This document shows, one piece after another, positions 3,001 to 9,526 of a DNA stretch of 64,000 nucleotides. Under the pieces are notes generated by a model. The model made no database searches. It saw only the letters and a list, made by a program, of their open reading frames with translations, and was not told the DNA's origin. Position 1 is the stretch's first letter. Each line of letters opens with the position of its first letter. The translations under genes and the position numbers were made by a program. This stretch comes from Bacteroidota bacterium (GTDB lineage: Bacteria; Bacteroidota; Bacteroidia; UKL13-3), in the NCBI GenBank assembly GCA_027488905.1, contig JAIYAT010000020.1:1-64000 (forward strand), given 5' to 3'.

Positions 3001-4554
3001 ATCCAAGACCCAACCGGTGCCATTGGTGTTCGTCAATCTAGTGGCGCAATGGTTGATTCTATCTTGAGTGGTGGTTTAAAAGCTGGTGATAGTGTAGAGG
3101 TTATTGGCGGTAGAGGAGAATTTAACAACTACTCTCAAATAGCAATACTCACAGGTGCTTATAGAGGAAATAGTTGGATTACTAAAATTTCTTCGAATAA
3201 TCCATTACCACAAGTTCAAGTGTTAACTGTTAAGCAATTATTAGCTAGTCCAGAAGCTTACGAAAGCGAATTGATTCGCATTGTAAATTTAAGTACTTCT
3301 GCAACCGGTAGTTTTGCAGCTTCTACAAATTACAATGTTTGGGATGGCTCAACAACAGGTGACACCACAGTTTTGCGAGTTATTTCTGCTGCAGACACTG
3401 AAATTGAAGATGCACCAGCTTTAGCTATACCAACAGGTAAATTTACTTTTGAAGGTACCTTAATTCAATTCTGTTCATCTCCAACCAGTGGTTGTGTAAC
3501 AGGTTACCAATTACAAGGTGTTCGCAAAGCTGATATCATTGTTCAACCAACATTACTAGGTGCCTTTAATTTATTGGCTCCAACAAACAATGCAAGAGTT
3601 GAAGTTGAAGAAGGCAGTACAGCCTTGGTAAATGTAACTTGGAATAAATCTGCAAACGCAACTAGTTACAAATGGATGGCTACTTTACCTATTGGAAACT
3701 TTAACACACCTTTATTAACCTTGGCTTCAAACAATGCAGGTGTAGATACTGTGTTAACTTTAGGTTCTGGCGCTGTAGACGCATTATTAGCTTCCTTTGG
3801 ACTTAAGAAAGGTGATTCAATCGCTCTTAAATGGACTGTATTTTCTTACAAAGCCACTTCGGATTCTTTACAAGCTTCTCAAGAATTCACAATTACTTTG
3901 GTACGTAAGCGTAAATTACAAGCATTTAATTTGTCAACTCCTGCTAATAACAGCCGCTTAGAAGTAGACCAAAATGAAACCACACCAGTAGTAGTTACTT
4001 GGAATGGTTCAGCTACAGGTGCTACTTACAAATGGTTCTTAGATTTAGAAACAGGCAACTTCAGTAATCCTTGGGCTGTATTGAGCTCTGATAATTCAGG
4101 CGCTGCAACACAATTGAGTTTAACTTCTGGAGCAATTGACGCATTGTTAAACACTAAAGGTGTTATTGATGGTGACTCAGTGAATTTGAAATGGACAGTT
4201 CGTGCATACGAAACAAATGATTCATTGCAAGCCACTCAAACCTTTAATCTAAAAGCTGTACGTAAAAAAGCGATTGGTGTGTTAGAAAACGATTTCTTAA
4301 ATACCATTAACTTATATCCAAATCCAACCCAAAACAATAGCACTTTGGCATTTGAATTGAACCAAAGAGGTGTGTTACAAATCTCTGTATTAGATATTCA
4401 TGGCAGAGTGGTAACAAGTTTAGTTGATTTGAACCTTAACGCTGGCAAACATGAAGTGGAAATTCCATCTTCTACTTTGCAAAGTGGTATTTACTTTGTA
4501 CAATTAAGCGCGAATAACAAAACAACACTTATTAAATTGGTGGTAGCCCACTAA
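1..4554 (+). CDS. Secreted multidomain PhoX-like/5'-nucleotidase-type phosphoesterase with T9SS sorting domain (5' partial)
   Basis: The frame is open to the first base, so the start lies upstream; the first Met in the window is at 25. Numbering from it, residues 1-300 look like a PhoX/DUF839-type beta-propeller. Residues about 303-640 are a UshA-type metallophosphatase with the HASD, SGD, GNHEFD (about 406), SH and GGSHS metal-binding motifs. Residues about 680-960 are a 5'-nucleotidase C-terminal domain with NGGGIR. Then come an OB-fold/DUF5689-like part (about 970-1170), two mutually similar SusE-like domains (about 1178-1295 and 1298-1415, both AFNL..P.NN.R.EV...VTWN), and a T9SS type A sorting domain from about 1428 (YPNPT). 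The architecture suggests a cell-surface or released enzyme that takes phosphate from nucleotides or phosphoesters. Substrate is not determinable. A strong terminator follows. Confidence 0.85.
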   Translation, partial: LGTQERIFMNGEESGSEGRAFAHILSGTNAGTTWELPYLGKFSWENSIACPVEQNKTIVVGTDDATPGQVYFYIGAKTNSGTEIEKAGLNNGRLYGVAVNGLTTEVSASFPAANTPFSLVDLGIVKDSSGAALNTKSNTLGVTNFLRPEDGHWDPSNPSDFYFATTNSFTAPSRLWRLRMTDIKNPELGGTITAVLDGTEGPKMIDNLTIDNYGHVLLQEDVGGQTHLGKIWQYTIATDQVRLIATHDSSRFIAGSPNFLTIDEEASGIIDMESILGPGKFLMVDQAHYSLGGELVEGGQILSLEVPTNNFTLQVLHASDMESSIDAVIDAPNFAAVMDKLESTHANTVKLASGDCFIPSPFLSAGEDASITTPLRNTASAYFPGTTSGLRAAIGRVDIAMMNIMGFQGSALGNHEFDLGTPEVNSIIGVDIRNNGADKRWVGAQFPYLSANLNFSADVNLAYLYTNKRLPVDSFKTAANITANAQKKGLAPSSIIIVNGEKIGIVGATTQVLASISSPGATTVIGSNTDNMPGLAAILQPVIDSLRFIEGINKIIVMSHLQQLANEKALAPLLKGVDIIIAGGSHSLCADGNDRLRAGNVAADKYPIMTQNNDKEPLAILNTTSEWKYVGRFVANFNDAGVLVTSLLDSTINGAYAADTAMVTQLWGNYANAFVAGKPAAHVRTLCAAIGNVIINKDGNKFGKSNVFLEGRRDQVRTQETNLGNVSSDANLWLAKKYDPTVRVSIKNGGGIRSAIGQVVSVGNGVQLLTTAANPSAGKNVGDISQLDIENSLRFNNKLSIVTVNAAGLRRLLEHGVSATKPGITPGQFPQVGGVLFSYDTTKVAGSKIQSMVLVDSIGNRLDTIVRFGNLHGDTSRLIKVVTLDFLAGGGDSYPFVSNGFNRINLDTAFKDSLYAKFQGNGTEQDAFADYMYAKHTSSPFAVRDTNLLGDNRIQLLNARQDGIFQPIKPLMTIAAARAQTTDTVKVRGIITRAWGRFIYIQDPTGAIGVRQSSGAMVDSILSGGLKAGDSVEVIGGRGEFNNYSQIAILTGAYRGNSWITKISSNNPLPQVQVLTVKQLLASPEAYESELIRIVNLSTSATGSFAASTNYNVWDGSTTGDTTVLRVISAADTEIEDAPALAIPTGKFTFEGTLIQFCSSPTSGCVTGYQLQGVRKADIIVQPTLLGAFNLLAPTNNARVEVEEGSTALVNVTWNKSANATSYKWMATLPIGNFNTPLLTLASNNAGVDTVLTLGSGAVDALLASFGLKKGDSIALKWTVFSYKATSDSLQASQEFTITLVRKRKLQAFNLSTPANNSRLEVDQNETTPVVVTWNGSATGATYKWFLDLETGNFSNPWAVLSSDNSGAATQLSLTSGAIDALLNTKGVIDGDSVNLKWTVRAYETNDSLQATQTFNLKAVRKKAIGVLENDFLNTINLYPNPTQNNSTLAFELNQRGVLQISVLDIHGRVVTSLVDLNLNAGKHEVEIPSSTLQSGIYFVQLSANNKTTLIKLVVAH

Positions 4555-4572: not shown

Positions 4573-4610
4573 AAAAGGGGGAAGCATATTTAATTATGCT
4601 TCCCCCTTTT
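4573..4610. terminator. Bidirectional Rho-independent terminator
   Basis: A perfect 15-bp stem (AAAAGGGGGAAGCAT at 4573-4587 with its complement at 4596-4610) encloses an 8-base loop. It has A/T tracts on both sides, so it can end the phosphoesterase transcript on + and the carbonic anhydrase operon on -. It sits between these convergent genes. Confidence 0.9.
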
Positions 4611-4707: not shown

Positions 4708-5454
4708 CTAACTGTTCATATATTCAAGGTGGCTTTGTCTAACTTTTGTATTTAAGTCTAACACATCAAAGCGCCTAATTTCTGTAAATGAACCCATGTC
4801 GCTGTCACTGTTAATAAGAATTGCTCCAACAAGAATAACATACTTGCAATTATAATTTGTCTTGTCAACCAATTCGTTTATGCGCCTATCAATGGATTCA
4901 TACATTACTTCCGTTGCTTCAAACAAAGGTGTTATGGCACTGAGAACCCTATCTTTCTCATTGAACAAAATTTGCTCAATGGTATTCATTTGATAATCTA
5001 ATTCTGTGATGTTTCCTGCTGTGATTTGATTGTTGGATAATTTCCCTAAAGCTCCTTTTGCGGCACCACAACAGCCACTATTTTTGCTTTGTCCAATTCG
5101 ATGAATTTCACCAATTGTTCCATCTTTGGTTATTCCAATATGTGGTCCATAATAAATAAAAACGGCCCCTTCATCTGGAACATGGCTTGCAAATGCGCCC
5201 ATTCCTGTAAGTCCTGTAAAGGGAAAACCATCTAAGCCACCCATTTTAAAAGGGCCTAAAAATTCTTGTGCTCTTGCTGGATATTGAATGCTATTGACAT
5301 CATCACTACAAACACTATCCGCTAACATTACTTGTTTTGGTTCTAAATCCAATTCATATTCTACAAAATCAATGATTTTGTTTACACTGTCTATGGTAGT
5401 AACAGCTTTTGGATACCATTTATGAATGATGGCTAATCTTTCTCTTTTTTTCAT
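4708..5454 (-). CDS. LCIB/LciC-family (theta-type) carbonic anhydrase
   Basis: 248 aa, soluble, no signal peptide. It carries the hallmarks of the limiting-CO2-inducible protein B family. CSDDVN (C49, D51) is followed by R61, then a Gly-rich GFPFTGLTGMGAF stretch, HVPD (H91), YGPHIGI (H105) and SGCCGA (C128/C129). By family knowledge C49, H105 and C129 would bind the catalytic zinc, and D51-R61 would form the Asp-Arg pair of beta/theta carbonic anhydrases; all are present, so the enzyme should be active. It is the last gene of an apparent three-gene operon, 9 bp after the bestrophin gene. In algae LCIB proteins and bestrophin-like HCO3- channels both belong to the CO2-concentrating mechanism. 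A role in CO2/bicarbonate interconversion here is inferred. Assignment is by motif recall, not by search. Confidence 0.8.
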   Translation of the reverse strand: MKKRERLAIIHKWYPKAVTTIDSVNKIIDFVEYELDLEPKQVMLADSVCSDDVNSIQYPARAQEFLGPFKMGGLDGFPFTGLTGMGAFASHVPDEGAVFIYYGPHIGITKDGTIGEIHRIGQSKNSGCCGAAKGALGKLSNNQITAGNITELDYQMNTIEQILFNEKDRVLSAITPLFEATEVMYESIDRRINELVDKTNYNCKYVILVGAILINSDSDMGSFTEIRRFDVLDLNTKVRQSHLEYMNS

Positions 5455-5463
5455 TTTATTAAA

Positions 5464-6471
5464 TTAAAGAATAATGTTATTTTTAGGTTGCAGCGCTGGT
5501 GGCAAATCAGTTTCGCCAAGCATTTCTCTCATATCAATTTCAATGGTTCGGCTAATCTGAGAAATAGGAACGTCGTTTGCAGCGCCTTCAAATGGATTTT
5601 CTGTGCTTTCACCAACTTGTTCTAAAGAGGTATAAACCCAAGAAATTAAAACGCTAAACGGAATAACCAACCAAACCATATTGCCTTTCATAAAACCGTC
5701 TGTGCTTTCGTTGAGTTTGTCAAATTCTCTGAGCATTCCAAATGGTAAAAGGATACAAAATAGCTTTATAAAAAACGAGTTGATGGTAGCAAATTGCCTT
5801 GGATAGGGAAAGTTTTTAATTCGTTCACTTTTGCCTTGTTGATCATATAAATCCTTTACCATTCTTTGCATTTCAACAAATTGATAGGTATCTATTTCTT
5901 GGTCGGCTAAAAGTTGCTTGATAGTTTTAGATTGCAAACTTAATAGTTGAGCGGCTCTGTTTTTAGTAGTTAAAATATACTTGAGTTCTTCTGCAGATAT
6001 ATATTTTGCTAATTCAGTTTCTAAGGGAGTTTCTTTTTCTGGAATACTATAAAATGCTTTGTACTCTTCATTGTAGGCAAGACTTGAAGTTTCCCAAGCC
6101 CTGCTGTCTCTCATGGCATATCGCAATGCGGTAAGCCAGGCAAAATGACGATAGACTAGCTCTTTTGTTATGGAGGTATTGTTAAAAAAATCTCTACTCA
6201 TTGTGCCGAATGAACGACTACTGTTTACAATTGCTCCCCAAATTTGTCGTGCTTCCCAAGTTCTATTATAGGTTTGTGTATTTTTAAAACCGACAAGAAA
6301 AGCTGTTGCTGTTCCTAAAAGAGCAACAACCGTCCAAGGAATTGCAATCCATTTTAAACCTGCTATTTGGTATAGCACAACCGGGATAATACCAATTATG
6401 AATGTTTTATAAATGTTCCTTCTAGTCCATAAAAGAAACTCAGAAAATTTATAGGCCTTACCGCTGTGCAT
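5464..6471 (-). CDS. Bestrophin family anion channel
   Basis: 335 aa membrane protein of the bestrophin/UPF0187 family. The N-terminal signature FKNTQTYNRTWEARQIWG (residues 62-79) followed by VNSSR is the canonical bestrophin motif. Hydrophobic segments lie at about 23-39, 44-61, 232-250 and 265-282, matching the four-helix pentameric channel fold. Bacterial bestrophins conduct ions (KpBest is cation-permeable), eukaryotic ones Cl- and HCO3-, and algal thylakoid homologues are implicated in HCO3- uptake. The selectivity of this protein cannot be read from sequence. It lies 61 bp after the K+-channel-like gene and 9 bp before the LCIB-type carbonic anhydrase, which makes bicarbonate a plausible substrate. 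Confidence 0.9.
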   Translation of the reverse strand: MHSGKAYKFSEFLLWTRRNIYKTFIIGIIPVVLYQIAGLKWIAIPWTVVALLGTATAFLVGFKNTQTYNRTWEARQIWGAIVNSSRSFGTMSRDFFNNTSITKELVYRHFAWLTALRYAMRDSRAWETSSLAYNEEYKAFYSIPEKETPLETELAKYISAEELKYILTTKNRAAQLLSLQSKTIKQLLADQEIDTYQFVEMQRMVKDLYDQQGKSERIKNFPYPRQFATINSFFIKLFCILLPFGMLREFDKLNESTDGFMKGNMVWLVIPFSVLISWVYTSLEQVGESTENPFEGAANDVPISQISRTIEIDMREMLGETDLPPALQPKNNIIL

Positions 6472-6532
6472 ACTTGTTGATTGTTACTAAAAATAACATT
6501 TTTTAAAATATTTCATTCATTTATTTCATCCC

Positions 6533-7204
6533 TCAACTCTCAATTTTATTGCTGAATTTACTAATTAAAATACCTACCAAGACTACGGAGTAAAATTGCC
6601 CCACAATGCCAAAAAACGAGGTGATTAGTTTGGTATAATGTGTATTTGGGGTAATGTCCCCAAAGCCAATACTGGTTAGCGTAATTGAACTAAAATAAAC
6701 CAAATCCATATAAGTAGCGGCTGGATTTATCAAATCAATTCCTTTGAAAGATTGGGGATCATGATATACAAAAAACTGTAAAAGGAAAGTGCATATTTCT
6801 ATTAATAAAAGGTAGCCACAGGCAGAAGCCGAGATAATATCTGTGTTGATATAACTTGGTTTAATTAAATATTTAAGTACCTCCCAGAAAATAAAGAGAA
6901 AAAAAATAACATAACATATGATCAAAAAAATGAAATAATAATTATTCTGACCCCAAAATGTTAAACCAATAGGCAAGCCTAAAACAAGTGCAAAAAGTAT
7001 TTTTTGAATAATATTTTTCCAATGACCTTTTTCTATAAAAACACCCACACTTGCAATGCCTAAAACAAGCATATTAAGTGGCCAAATTACTTTTGTGTAA
7101 AACACTAAATCAGTTAAAAATATACCTATAAAAAGGTGCTGAATTAAGGCTATAAGCAATAATTCATATTTTCTTTTGTGAAGGTAATTTATCATTCTAT
7201 GCAT
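6533..7204 (-). CDS. Ion channel protein with K+ channel selectivity filter
   Basis: 223 aa membrane protein. Five hydrophobic helices (about 14-31, 38-56, 68-84, 88-110, 124-146) are followed by a pore helix and the filter TSIGFGD (177-183), then a last helix (about 193-215). TxGFGD is the K+ channel filter with Ile in place of the usual Val. There is no voltage-sensor arginine ladder and no cytosolic ligand-binding (RCK) domain. It is the first gene of the operon with bestrophin and carbonic anhydrase, so it may balance charge moved by the bestrophin (inference). An in-frame Met at residue 4 is an alternative start. Confidence 0.8.
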   Translation of the reverse strand: MHRMINYLHKRKYELLLIALIQHLFIGIFLTDLVFYTKVIWPLNMLVLGIASVGVFIEKGHWKNIIQKILFALVLGLPIGLTFWGQNNYYFIFLIICYVIFFLFIFWEVLKYLIKPSYINTDIISASACGYLLLIEICTFLLQFFVYHDPQSFKGIDLINPAATYMDLVYFSSITLTSIGFGDITPNTHYTKLITSFFGIVGQFYSVVLVGILISKFSNKIES

Positions 7205-7225
7205 TTACGAGCCTGTTCAATAGCC

Positions 7226-7238
7226 ATACAAATTGTAT
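7226..7238 (-). promoter_or_regulatory. 13-bp palindrome in front of channel/bestrophin/LCIB operon
   Basis: ATACAA-A-TTGTAT is a perfect 6-bp inverted repeat with a 1-bp spacer, 22 bp upstream of the channel start codon. The position suits an operator, or it overlaps the promoter -7 region. No matching regulator was identified. Confidence 0.35.
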
Positions 7239-7517: not shown

Positions 7518-7844
7518 TTACTTTTTCTTTTTTTTGGGTTTCGGTTCGGGTAGGTTGTCTACTGTAATGCTTACCAAGTCGCTTAACCATTTACTATCCT
7601 CAATTTTGTCTTCAATTAAAAAACTGGGTTTTGCCCCTTCATAGGCTGGTAATTCGGTAGGTTTTCCAATAAACTCTCGTCCCTTATTTGTTGGTTTGAT
7701 AAATAACTTATTGTCGCAGATTACCCCGAAAAGTTTGCTGTCACAGTAAATACCATACTCTCCAAACATTTTCTTGGCAGAAATTGTCCCTATGTTTTGA
7801 ATTTGCTCAATTACAAAATCAACAAAGTTTTGGTCTGAAGCCAT
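7518..7844 (-). CDS. TfoX N-terminal domain protein
   Basis: 108 aa. Residues 1-95 match the TfoX/Sxy N-terminal domain, with the typical KKMFGEYGIYCDSKLFGVI core and the KPTN/EFIG stretch. The C-terminal Lys-rich tail (PKPKKKKK) is common in Bacteroidota homologues. These single-domain proteins lack the TfoX C-terminal domain, so a competence role is not established. It is transcribed alone, divergent from the CrtA-like gene. Confidence 0.8.
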   Translation of the reverse strand: MASDQNFVDFVIEQIQNIGTISAKKMFGEYGIYCDSKLFGVICDNKLFIKPTNKGREFIGKPTELPAYEGAKPSFLIEDKIEDSKWLSDLVSITVDNLPEPKPKKKKK

Positions 7845-8067: not shown

Positions 8068-8784
8068 ATGATTTCAATTACCACGCTCACCTTTTTTCGA
8101 TTTCCAAACTTAAAATCCAAACTGTGGGCTTTTGGTCAAATGCAATACGCACATTTTTTCCTTGCAAAAAGCAAAGGGCTCAATTTTTACAAATTAATGG
8201 GCAGTGGCAGGGACATTGGTTTCAGTTTATTTCCAGATTGGGGTGTATACGCTTTACTTGGAGTTTGGGAAAGTGAACAAGCAGCCAATATTTTTTTTAA
8301 CCATTCAGCAATTTACAAACACTTTCAAAAAATATCTTCTGAGCAATGGACCATTTTTATGAAACCCATTCAAACCAAAGGTCTTTGGTCTGGGGGAAAT
8401 CCATTTACACCTTCCTTAGCGTTGGATGCAAGTAATCCATTGATTGCTGTAATAACACGTGCCACCATTAAGACAAATAAATTATTGAAATTTTGGCGTT
8501 TTGTGCCAATATCTCAAATGCCTATTCAACGTGGTTGCGAAGGGCTTATTTATACCAAAGGTGTTGGTGAGGTGCCAATTGTTCAAATGGCTACTTTTAG
8601 TGTTTGGGAAAACTTGGCCGCGTTGAAAAAATATGCTTATAACAGTTTAGAACATCGCGAGGCTATAAAAAAAACACACCAAATAGATTGGTACAAAGAA
8701 GAAATGTTTACAAGGTTTCAACCCTTCAAAACCATGGGTAATTGGGAAGGTAAAGACGTATTGGCTCAATATTTAAAAAGCTAA
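8068..8784 (+). CDS. Spheroidene monooxygenase (CrtA)-like haem protein
   Basis: 238 aa, no signal peptide. Conserved blocks of the CrtA family are present in order: TLTFFRF near the N-terminus, WAFGQMQYAHFFL, FYKLMGSG, the VYALLGVWES block, W.GGNPF, a VITRATI block, a GVGEVP..QMATFSVW block, and the C-terminal WYKEEMFTRF motif. CrtA of phototrophs is a haem monooxygenase that makes the 2-keto group of spheroidene. Bacteroidota carry homologues without the spheroidene pathway, and no crt genes are in this window. The substrate here may be another carotenoid or unrelated. A longer overlapping frame from 8049 is not the gene. Confidence 0.72.
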   Translation: MISITTLTFFRFPNLKSKLWAFGQMQYAHFFLAKSKGLNFYKLMGSGRDIGFSLFPDWGVYALLGVWESEQAANIFFNHSAIYKHFQKISSEQWTIFMKPIQTKGLWSGGNPFTPSLALDASNPLIAVITRATIKTNKLLKFWRFVPISQMPIQRGCEGLIYTKGVGEVPIVQMATFSVWENLAALKKYAYNSLEHREAIKKTHQIDWYKEEMFTRFQPFKTMGNWEGKDVLAQYLKS

Positions 8785-8977: not shown

Positions 8978-9526
8978 TCAAGCTTTCACAAGCCGTATGT
9001 CTATTTCTCTATCTACATATTTCCATTCTTCAGTTTCCCTAAGAGATTTAACAAGTTCTTCAAATTTGTCTTTATCATCCTTTGTGTATTCAAACCAAGT
9101 CAAAAAGTCAAATGGTTGTCCAATGTCTCTGCAATGATAAAGTTTACGAGCAATAGCGGGTAAATACTTTAATCCAGTTTCGGTATGATGTGATTTGGCT
9201 TCAAATATCTTTCTTCTTTCGTCTTGAGCCATTGCCCACCAAGATTCTGTTTTACGAATTGGAATTAATGCTGCATAGTTTGCCTGAGGTCGACCTAAGT
9301 CGGAATGAACAGCAATAAGTTTTTCTCGCTCGTCTTTTTCAGCATAACGAACATTGCTAGTAAAGCCTGTCAACGTCCAAACGCCTTTATTTAGGTTATT
9401 TGTCAAATTTGGAAGGATGTCAATGTATTTTACGTTTTCTATTGGAAGCCCGGAGACGGAATCCATACTAATAACTTTCCATGCTCCAATGTCTCCTCCA
9501 ATAAAGTCAAATGTATTTGTCGTCAT
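8978..9526 (-). CDS. cld: Chlorite dismutase, clade 2 (dimeric type)
   Basis: 182 aa, the length of the Nitrobacter-type clade 2 enzymes, which it resembles throughout. The recognisable blocks are FIGGDIGAWKV, the ALIPIRKTESWW region, QDERR.IFE.KSHHT, LKYLPAIARKLYHCRDIG and PFDFLTWFEY. H114 is the expected proximal haem ligand and R127 the distal catalytic arginine, both at the family positions, so chlorite-to-chloride-plus-O2 activity is likely. No signal peptide: cytoplasmic. It has no perchlorate or chlorate reductase neighbours and lies between two cassette-type repeats, which suggests acquisition by transfer. Its role may be protection from chlorite or other oxidants. Confidence 0.92.
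   Translation of the reverse strand: MTTNTFDFIGGDIGAWKVISMDSVSGLPIENVKYIDILPNLTNNLNKGVWTLTGFTSNVRYAEKDEREKLIAVHSDLGRPQANYAALIPIRKTESWWAMAQDERRKIFEAKSHHTETGLKYLPAIARKLYHCRDIGQPFDFLTWFEYTKDDKDKFEELVKSLRETEEWKYVDREIDIRLVKA

Follow-up and report, generated by a model that had tools for sequence, protein, structure and literature searches.

A bestrophin gene beside an LCIB-class carbonic anhydrase gene in Bacteroidota suggests a bacterial bicarbonate pathway

The window, that is, the whole 64,000-nucleotide stretch of Bacteroidota DNA that was analysed, contains an apparent operon of three minus-strand genes, encoding in turn a K+-channel-like protein, a bestrophin (PF25539) and an LCIB-class beta-carbonic anhydrase (CA; PF18599). 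As can be seen in Table 1, the ORF coordinates bear out the gene arrangement and the two short gaps given in the initial annotation. The terminator that it placed after the last gene is also there, with the 16-pair stem confirmed within a hairpin whose 19-nt arms show 95% complementarity and whose T-run can be read on the minus strand as well. This terminator is probably common to the operon and a convergent plus-strand gene (ending at position 4554), since it sits between the two. The palindrome noted before the first gene exists, but it is weak and not conserved, having not been seen 5' of 14 homologous channel genes (up to 140 bp inspected for each). Its short arms and this absence led us to reject it as an operator, and it probably arose by chance.

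Table 1. Positions in the window of the three genes, the gaps between them and the flanking elements.
Feature	Position	Strand	Basis
K+-channel-like protein, 223 aa, operon gene 1	6533..7204	-	ORF; Ion_trans_2 (PF07885) 5.7e-13
Intergenic gap, 61 bp, K+-channel-like gene to bestrophin gene	6472..6532	-	ORF coordinates
Bestrophin, 335 aa, neck T54-F58-F62	5464..6471	-	PF25539 7.1e-44
Gap, 9 bp, bestrophin gene to LCIB gene	5455..5463	-	ORF coordinates
LCIB-class beta-carbonic anhydrase, 248 aa; C49, D51, H91, R119, C129	4708..5454	-	PF18599 2.6e-77
Terminator-like hairpin	4573..4610		16-pair stem and T-run found on + strand
Inverted repeat ATACAA/t/TTGTAT, arms 6 bp	7226..7238		Weak; 1 of 14 inverted repeats in AT-rich 331 bp

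The product of the last gene belongs to the LCIB class. Its Pfam match to PF18599 (LCIB_C_CA) scores 259.5 bits (cut-off 25) over positions 2-222 of 223, and phmmer relates it to the structures 6kfs (2.2e-30) and PtLCIB4 5b5y (2.4e-25), with which it shares this domain, the conserved Cys, His and Asp residues and the Ser at the S47 position. PtLCIB4 differs in having an insert after the second Cys motif that is missing from the bacterial protein. The zinc and Asp-Arg residues expected of such an enzyme are all present, as stated in the initial annotation, R119 being from its conservation the putative catalytic Arg. The five residues in Table 1 are all kept in 91/91 sequences of at least 55% identity, and of 32 LCIB sequences that are more distant, 31 or 32 have them, a count that skipped 5 of 128 loci. 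In the alignment to PtLCIB4, S50 corresponds to the Ser altered in the S47R entry; H91 corresponds to H88 (numbered by counting from S47), altered in the H88A entry. Constitutive activity has been attributed to PtLCIB3 and PtLCIB4 (PMC9614477), and some family members are described as inactive once purified (PMC5876011). No signal peptide is apparent by eye, and the gene is the only one of its class in the genome. Records whose titles name several different families show 85-88% identity to the protein, which suggests that LCIB genes may have been transferred horizontally. A plasmid origin was rejected since LCIB had no match on 72,556 plasmid records; bestrophins occur on 113 of these records, and six of the best-matching plasmid bestrophin regions contain no CA (five by annotation and the unannotated H3 by profile search).

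The second protein is a bestrophin of the Bestrophin_2 family (150.9 bits in Pfam), and its nearest solved homologue is the Klebsiella bestrophin KpBest (phmmer, 3.4e-21). Its predicted model (pLDDT 92.3) was the one used for structural comparison, with Foldseek and VIA-align. It shows the same fold as KpBest (4wd7, Z score 26.5), followed by plant VCCN1 (7ek2, 22.7) and animal BEST1/BEST2 (~22). In contrast to this shared fold, identity to KpBest is 23-26% and the neck is T-F-F rather than I-I-F; relative to the eukaryotic I-F-F neck, positions 2 and 3 match while position 1 (T, not I) differs. KpBest, described in the literature as a Na+ channel, is reported to shift its selectivity towards Cl- upon the I66F change, and human bestrophins are reported to conduct HCO3- (PMC8496536). 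LCIB partners only TFF or IFF bestrophins among the rows examined, that is, in 53/53 LCIB-linked rows representing 49 distinct sequences, four genes being present twice (L001/L111, L173/L185, L012/L183 and L181/L186); rows under about 200-220 aa were left out of the neck alignments. The middle F was nevertheless rejected as a mark of CA linkage, since it is shared by 31 unlinked bestrophins of the same subfamily and since canonical beta-CAs are paired with IIF, TIF and TVF bestrophins. CA linkage and an anion-type neck thus do not coincide, and 34/42 class-sample bestrophins with a middle-F neck have no CA within 400 bp.

The first protein displays six hydrophobic helices by eye and the selectivity filter TSIGFGD, which is kept as T[ST]IG[FY]GD in 15/15 aligned relatives, and phmmer matches it to KCNQ and K2P chains. 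Its predicted model was poor (pLDDT 49) and was not used. A K+-type channel is present in 14 of the 80 named LCIB loci. The charge-balance role proposed for it in the initial annotation is plausible because this channel subfamily is rare outside such a setting (above 100 bits in 3/149 genomes of the class sample, one of them the window) and because seven other LCIB loci of the 80 have a Na+/H+-antiporter-type gene (PF00999) within 3.5 kb.

The pairing of LCIB with a bestrophin is not unique to this genome, uniqueness being an outcome that the initial annotation had named as refuting its idea. Gene adjacency was assessed in one bacterial class, the phylum sample and a few plasmids. The pairing recurs across Bacteroidota: a bestrophin lies on the same strand within 400 bp in 44/80 named LCIB loci, upstream in 38 and downstream in six, counting L078, in which it is split. 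The two genes are separated by a median of 16 bp over both gene orders, as measured from alignment ends with start codons unchecked, and they overlap by ~4 bp in L055, L186 and L187. Another 35/80 loci lack one out to 700 bp, with a broken remnant at one of these. Of the 26 genomes of this kind that were searched, representing 26 of the 35 loci, 25 have a PF25539 match somewhere. CA is beside none of the 30 best-ranking bestrophin loci from these genomes, one of which has a TFF neck. Distant LCIBs, consisting of ten in the class sample (31-43% identity) and 25 others, have no bestrophin in their ~1.4-kb flanks. Two named loci carry titles from outside Bacteroidota, L064 (Limnohabitans) and L074 (Chthonomonas), both from MAGs that may be misbinned.

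Bestrophins also have a second kind of CA partner. With the window excluded, 10/131 bestrophins in the class sample (149 genomes) have a canonical beta-CA directly downstream within 400 bp, and 2/131 have an LCIB neighbor. About 0.05 beta-CA neighbors would be expected at 3,000 genes per genome, which corresponds to a Poisson probability of 4e-20 if the ten cases are independent, or of 2e-5 if they are counted as the three bestrophin clades in which they fall. The starred branches of the bestrophin tree force at least three beta-CA and at least six LCIB changes. This tree keeps one in six xLF/xMF rows, drops sequences shorter than 250 aa (280 among the named loci), and leaves out L078 (split gene), L294 and L009 (broken gene). 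Among class-sample rows, the fragmentary PF25539 matches G449:C26 and G495:C165 were left out, three pairs of matches, each pair representing fragments of a single broken gene, were taken as one stretch per pair, and three short rows with no readable neck were placed in "other"; L294 is counted there as G467:C14 (TFF, no CA). Because bestrophins pair with ordinary beta-CAs as well, a link between bestrophins and carbonic anhydrase is likely. Among the papers listed by full-text searches of open-access literature, none describes a bacterial bestrophin-carbonic anhydrase operon in its title or the start of its abstract, with most subscription journals and preprints outside this scope.

We give roughly even chances to the operon encoding a carbonic anhydrase-fed bicarbonate channel module. 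The neck residues point to anion selectivity, the partner genes to HCO3- as the conducted ion, and electrochemistry to export and a role in pH. The LCIB-class enzyme would hydrate CO2 from respiration, yielding HCO3- and H+ in the cytosol, and the bestrophin would pass HCO3- outward, down the inside-negative potential, with charge balanced by K+ exit through the partner channel or, in other lineages, by Na+/H+ exchange. On balance, CO2 would leave the cell as KHCO3 and H+ would stay inside, which might serve against cytoplasmic alkalinization or for holding a CO2/HCO3- pool. The polarity would be that of the Chlamydomonas LCIB and BST1-3 model (stroma to lumen), with no RuBisCO. Counting against this module are the LCIB loci that lack a nearby bestrophin, the absence of CA from the plasmid bestrophin regions and from the bestrophin loci of genomes whose LCIB stands alone, and the mismatch between CA linkage and an anion-type neck, whose first position here is T.

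Of the two uses put forward in the initial annotation, pH control fits better than CO2 capture. The organism's own genome (99.9% complete) has no match to PF00016 (RuBisCO, the sink of a CO2-concentrating mechanism), nor to PF10070, the DabA of a DAB CO2 pump. Other bicarbonate-type transporters are encoded outside the operon, namely a protein of the SbtA family and a SulP-betaCA fusion. Moreover, anions should be exported by a passive channel where the membrane is inside-negative. On all these counts CO2 capture, in which the module would supply carboxylases with inorganic carbon by raising HCO3- in the cytosol when CO2 is low, is weakly supported and unlikely, since such a channel could hardly accumulate HCO3- against the potential, even though the algal homologues serve a CO2-concentrating mechanism and a divergent SbtA-family (Na+/bicarbonate transporter) gene adjoins 3/25 distant LCIB loci (L086-L110). 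A still less probable explanation, consistent with the fold match to VCCN1 and the K+-type channel in the same operon, is a Cl- channel tuning membrane potential, as VCCN1 does in plant thylakoids, with the CA merely co-regulated; it leaves unexplained why neighbors from two CA classes recur in separate clades. The presence of an anion-type and a K+-type channel in one operon could also mean emergency release of K+ and HCO3- on osmotic downshift with the help of the CA, which we regard as very improbable, as the three proteins gave no match to a sensor or regulator domain and the CA link is not accounted for. Least probable by a little is a Na+-selective channel unrelated to the CA, as suggested by KpBest, for F occupies the neck position at which I66F is reported to reverse KpBest selectivity, and CA partners are recurrent.

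The carbonic anhydrase-fed bicarbonate channel resembles several known systems. In Chlamydomonas, BST1 and BST3 are reported as interaction partners of LCIB/LCIC, with a proposed direction (PMC6708349), while BST4 is reported to give no currents in oocytes (PMC11638005), which we count against the bicarbonate-channel model. The same two protein families are involved, at the level of family comparison, and in both settings the enzyme is on the negative side of an energized membrane that holds the bestrophin. However, the system described here is a bacterial operon with one LCIB gene, no RuBisCO match and an added K+-type channel, and the bacterial bestrophin partner elsewhere can be a canonical beta-CA. 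A SulP-beta-CA fusion likewise ties carbonic anhydrase to an anion transporter, but this is a secondary transporter fused to the CA, as opposed to a channel in an operon. The DAB (DabA/DabB) pump is reported to couple a carbonic anhydrase-like enzyme to a membrane partner (PMC13144422), but links hydration to proton flux. A broader and rather doubtful possibility is that carbonic anhydrases and bestrophins form an ancient bacterial machine, the enzyme being docked at the channel's cytosolic vestibule and supplying it with HCO3-. The enzyme class (LCIB or canonical beta-CA) would have been exchanged several times, and the algal LCIB-BST pair would be a redeployed bacterial device for pH control and CO2 export, not an algal invention.

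To our knowledge, there is no agreed physiological role for bacterial bestrophins. Their repeated genetic link to two CA classes provides a candidate one, that of a bicarbonate channel, and the adjacency of LCIB and bestrophin genes suggests a bacterial bicarbonate pathway. The operon is an experimentally simple version of a pair whose mechanism in algae is still modeled. Many non-photosynthetic bacteria have, side by side, a probable CO2-hydrating enzyme and an ion channel from the two families thought to be paired in algal photosynthesis.

The gene calls agree with the initial annotation on a set of three minus-strand genes, separated by 61 and 9 bp and running from a K+-channel-like gene through a bestrophin to an LCIB-class carbonic anhydrase (CA). 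PF18599 (LCIB) and PF25539 (bestrophin) have one match each in this genome, both inside this operon. The next gene upstream on the same strand, encoding a TfoX_N protein, ends 313 bp away. The terminator reported behind the operon corresponds to a strong terminator-like hairpin, located between the operon and a convergent plus-strand gene ending at 4554, while the palindrome reported before the first gene is present, with 6-bp arms, but absent upstream of 14 relatives. The window also encodes a spheroidene monooxygenase (CrtA)-like protein and a chlorite-dismutase-family protein of 182 aa.

Coordinates of the operon, of its surroundings, and of features in other loci (L) and in the own genome (G000)
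Feature	Position	Strand	Profile match
Operon	4708-7204	minus	
K+-channel-like gene	6533-7204	minus	PF07885 5.7e-13
Bestrophin gene	5464-6471	minus	PF25539 7.1e-44
LCIB-class CA gene	4708-5454	minus	PF18599 2.6e-77
Terminator-like hairpin	4573-4610		
TfoX_N protein gene	7518-7844	minus	
CrtA-like protein	8068-8784		NF045923 221 bits, under its cut-off of 300
Chlorite-dismutase-family protein	8978-9526		PF06778 7.5e-12, profile positions 66-183 of 189
Broken bestrophin	L009:7622-7951		
Beta-CA and Gly-substituted LCIB	L196:615-2181		
Bestrophin and acetoacetate decarboxylase	L258:4001-6898		
SulP-type transporter fused to beta-CA	G000:C6:219776-220231		

The LCIB-bestrophin pair on which the annotation had built a bicarbonate module recurs well beyond this genome. 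In a one-genome-per-species scan, from which the best 80 of 102 LCIB relatives were taken, 44 of the 80 loci have a same-strand bestrophin within 400 bp, upstream of LCIB in 38 and downstream in 6, with a median gap of 16 bp, and one further locus among the 80 (L076) has it at 676 bp. Linked loci in this set of the best 80 of 102, counted at 700 bp, occur in Flavobacteriaceae (6/18), Sphingobacteriaceae (6/11), Spirosomataceae (7/9), Weeksellaceae (4/5), Cyclobacteriaceae (4/4), Chitinophagaceae (1/4), and other families. PF18599 itself is uncommon, being found in 35/395 genomes of the phylum sample and 17/395 of the class sample. Bestrophin adjoins LCIB in 5 of these 17 class-sample cases, all five among the seven with at least 55% identity to the LCIB of the window, and in 0 of the 10 distant ones. 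In two loci (L048 and L051), ~5 kb separates LCIB from a same-strand bestrophin with the neck residues TFF, and the interval contains a Na+/H+-antiporter-type gene.

This link is part of a broader pairing, since carbonic anhydrases and bestrophins are genetically linked also outside the LCIB class. PF25539 matches occur in 73 of the 149 genomes of the class sample searched, and we opened 132 bestrophin loci, the window included, leaving out two fragmentary hits. Of the 132, 10 have a same-strand beta-CA no more than 400 bp away, always downstream, and 3 have a linked LCIB, the window among them. All ten beta-CAs match PF00484 above cut-off, that of L168 being also scanned directly, and four further loci (L232, L233, L243, and L250) have a beta-CA 466 to 1,881 bp from the bestrophin. 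Given 177 PF00484 matches in the 149 genomes, and assuming 3,000 genes per genome, ~0.05 directly downstream beta-CA neighbors would be expected by chance versus ten observed. Because relatedness inflates this contrast, we also counted clades: the beta-CA-linked bestrophins form three separate starred clades in a 126-row tree built by a quick method with long-branch warnings, and the Poisson probability of three chance pairings is 2e-5. The starred branches of this tree imply that LCIB linkage changed six times or more, gain and loss being indistinguishable. This adjacency evidence is drawn from one bacterial class, a phylum sample, and a few plasmids. Behind a TFF bestrophin encoded by a Burkholderia plasmid comes, 318 bp on, the gene for an acetoacetate decarboxylase, a CO2-producing enzyme. 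Like the SulP-fused beta-CA of the own genome, the beta-CA matches of G502 and G474 sit in long frames, of 746 and 751 aa.

The nearest solved chains to the LCIB of the window belong to the LCIB family (6kfs, 2.2e-30; PtLCIB4, 2.4e-25). LCIB matches at 128 loci yielded 123 clean proteins. The zinc and Asp-Arg residues expected by the annotation (C49, D51, H91, R119, and C129) are retained in 91/91 near relatives, and each of them is kept by 31 or 32 of the 32 distant ones. Judging by its conservation, R119 is probably the catalytic Arg. In the alignment with PtLCIB4, S50 and H91 fall on the positions altered in its S47R and H88A entries (H88 by counting). According to a review, some LCIB homologues are inactive once purified (PMC5876011), whereas another describes PtLCIB3 and PtLCIB4 as constitutively active (PMC9614477); the window's enzyme may therefore be active or not. 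In one locus (L196), an intact beta-CA gene is followed at a distance of 212 bp by an LCIB gene with Gly at the first zinc Cys, possibly encoding a pseudo-enzyme partner, and a partial Na+/H+ antiporter (PF03553) is found nearby.

The predicted model of the bestrophin is confident (pLDDT 92.3) and resembles KpBest (Z 26.5, rmsd 1.8, 267 aligned residues), plant VCCN1 (Z 22.7), and animal BEST1/BEST2 (Z about 22). Its neck consists of T54, F58, and F62, the corresponding residues being I62, I66, and F70 in KpBest and I76, F80, and F84 in animal bestrophins, as given in a review that also describes KpBest as a Na+ channel, its I66F mutation as moving selectivity towards Cl-, and the HCO3- permeability of human bestrophins as 0.44-0.69 of that of Cl- (PMC8496536). 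The neck reads TFF or IFF in all 53 rows of LCIB-linked bestrophins (49 distinct sequences) and likewise in 31 unlinked ones, which makes it a subfamily trait. Across the 132 loci, window included, CA linkage is 0/63 for xLF/xMF necks, 8/42 for xFF, 4/23 for xIF, and 1/4 for others (0/63 versus 12/67 for the rest, Fisher p 3e-4, window excluded and computed before locus L294 joined). Neck type is not equivalent to clade, as two IIF bestrophins with a beta-CA group within the xLF/xMF clade.

Of the best 80 of 102 LCIB loci, 14 have the K+ channel upstream at a distance of up to 2.5 kb, and seven others have a Na+/H+-antiporter-type gene within 3.5 kb (one representative scanned, PF00999 5.2e-57). 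The filter T[ST]IG[FY]GD is kept in 15/15 K+-channel relatives; matches above 100 bits occur in 3/149 class genomes, namely the window's own, another that is 38% identical, and a fragmentary one. Three of 25 distant LCIB loci (L096, L099, and L106, among L086-L110) have a divergent gene for an SbtA-family bicarbonate transporter 125-178 bp away (representative PF05982). These neighbors all concern bicarbonate, protons, or balancing monovalent cations; many others have no such link, including a short-chain dehydrogenase, an AraC regulator, and an RNA helicase. In L026, L062, L064, and L073, a hydrophobic protein of 165-194 aa is encoded upstream of the bestrophin-LCIB pair; the L062 copy, the sole one scanned, has no Pfam match.

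Several observations speak against the proposed bicarbonate module. No bestrophin is found within 700 bp in 35 of the best 80 of 102 LCIB loci. A CA within 400 bp is absent at 34/42 middle-F bestrophins of the class sample, none was found in six plasmid bestrophin regions, and none lies beside 30 bestrophin loci opened from genomes with a lone LCIB. The first neck residue of the window's bestrophin is Thr, in contrast to the Ile of KpBest and animal bestrophins. One of the 35 bestrophin-less loci (L009) has a bestrophin remnant between K+ channel and LCIB: an internal deletion and a change of frame disrupt it, and the genes on either side look intact.

The own genome has no RuBisCO match and no DabA match; outside the operon, it encodes a protein of the SbtA family and a fusion of a SulP-type transporter with a beta-CA. 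Across an inside-negative membrane, a passive anion channel would let HCO3- exit, not enter. The same polarity is proposed in Chlamydomonas: LCIB/LCIC are believed to generate stromal HCO3-, BST1-3 are the proposed route for its passage to the lumen, and an interaction of LCIB/C with BST1 and BST3 has been reported (PMC6708349). Bicarbonate conductance cannot be taken for granted in all algal relatives, since Chlamydomonas BST4 is reported to have yielded no current in oocytes (PMC11638005). We found no description of a bacterial bestrophin-CA operon by title or abstract opening in the open-access full-text literature, a scope outside which most subscription journals and preprints fall. In the simplest reading, for which we infer ion, direction, and physiological role, the cytosolic LCIB enzyme would hydrate respired CO2, HCO3- would exit together with K+, and H+ would be retained inside the cell, which may serve to guard against an alkaline cytoplasm or to control the CO2/HCO3- pool.
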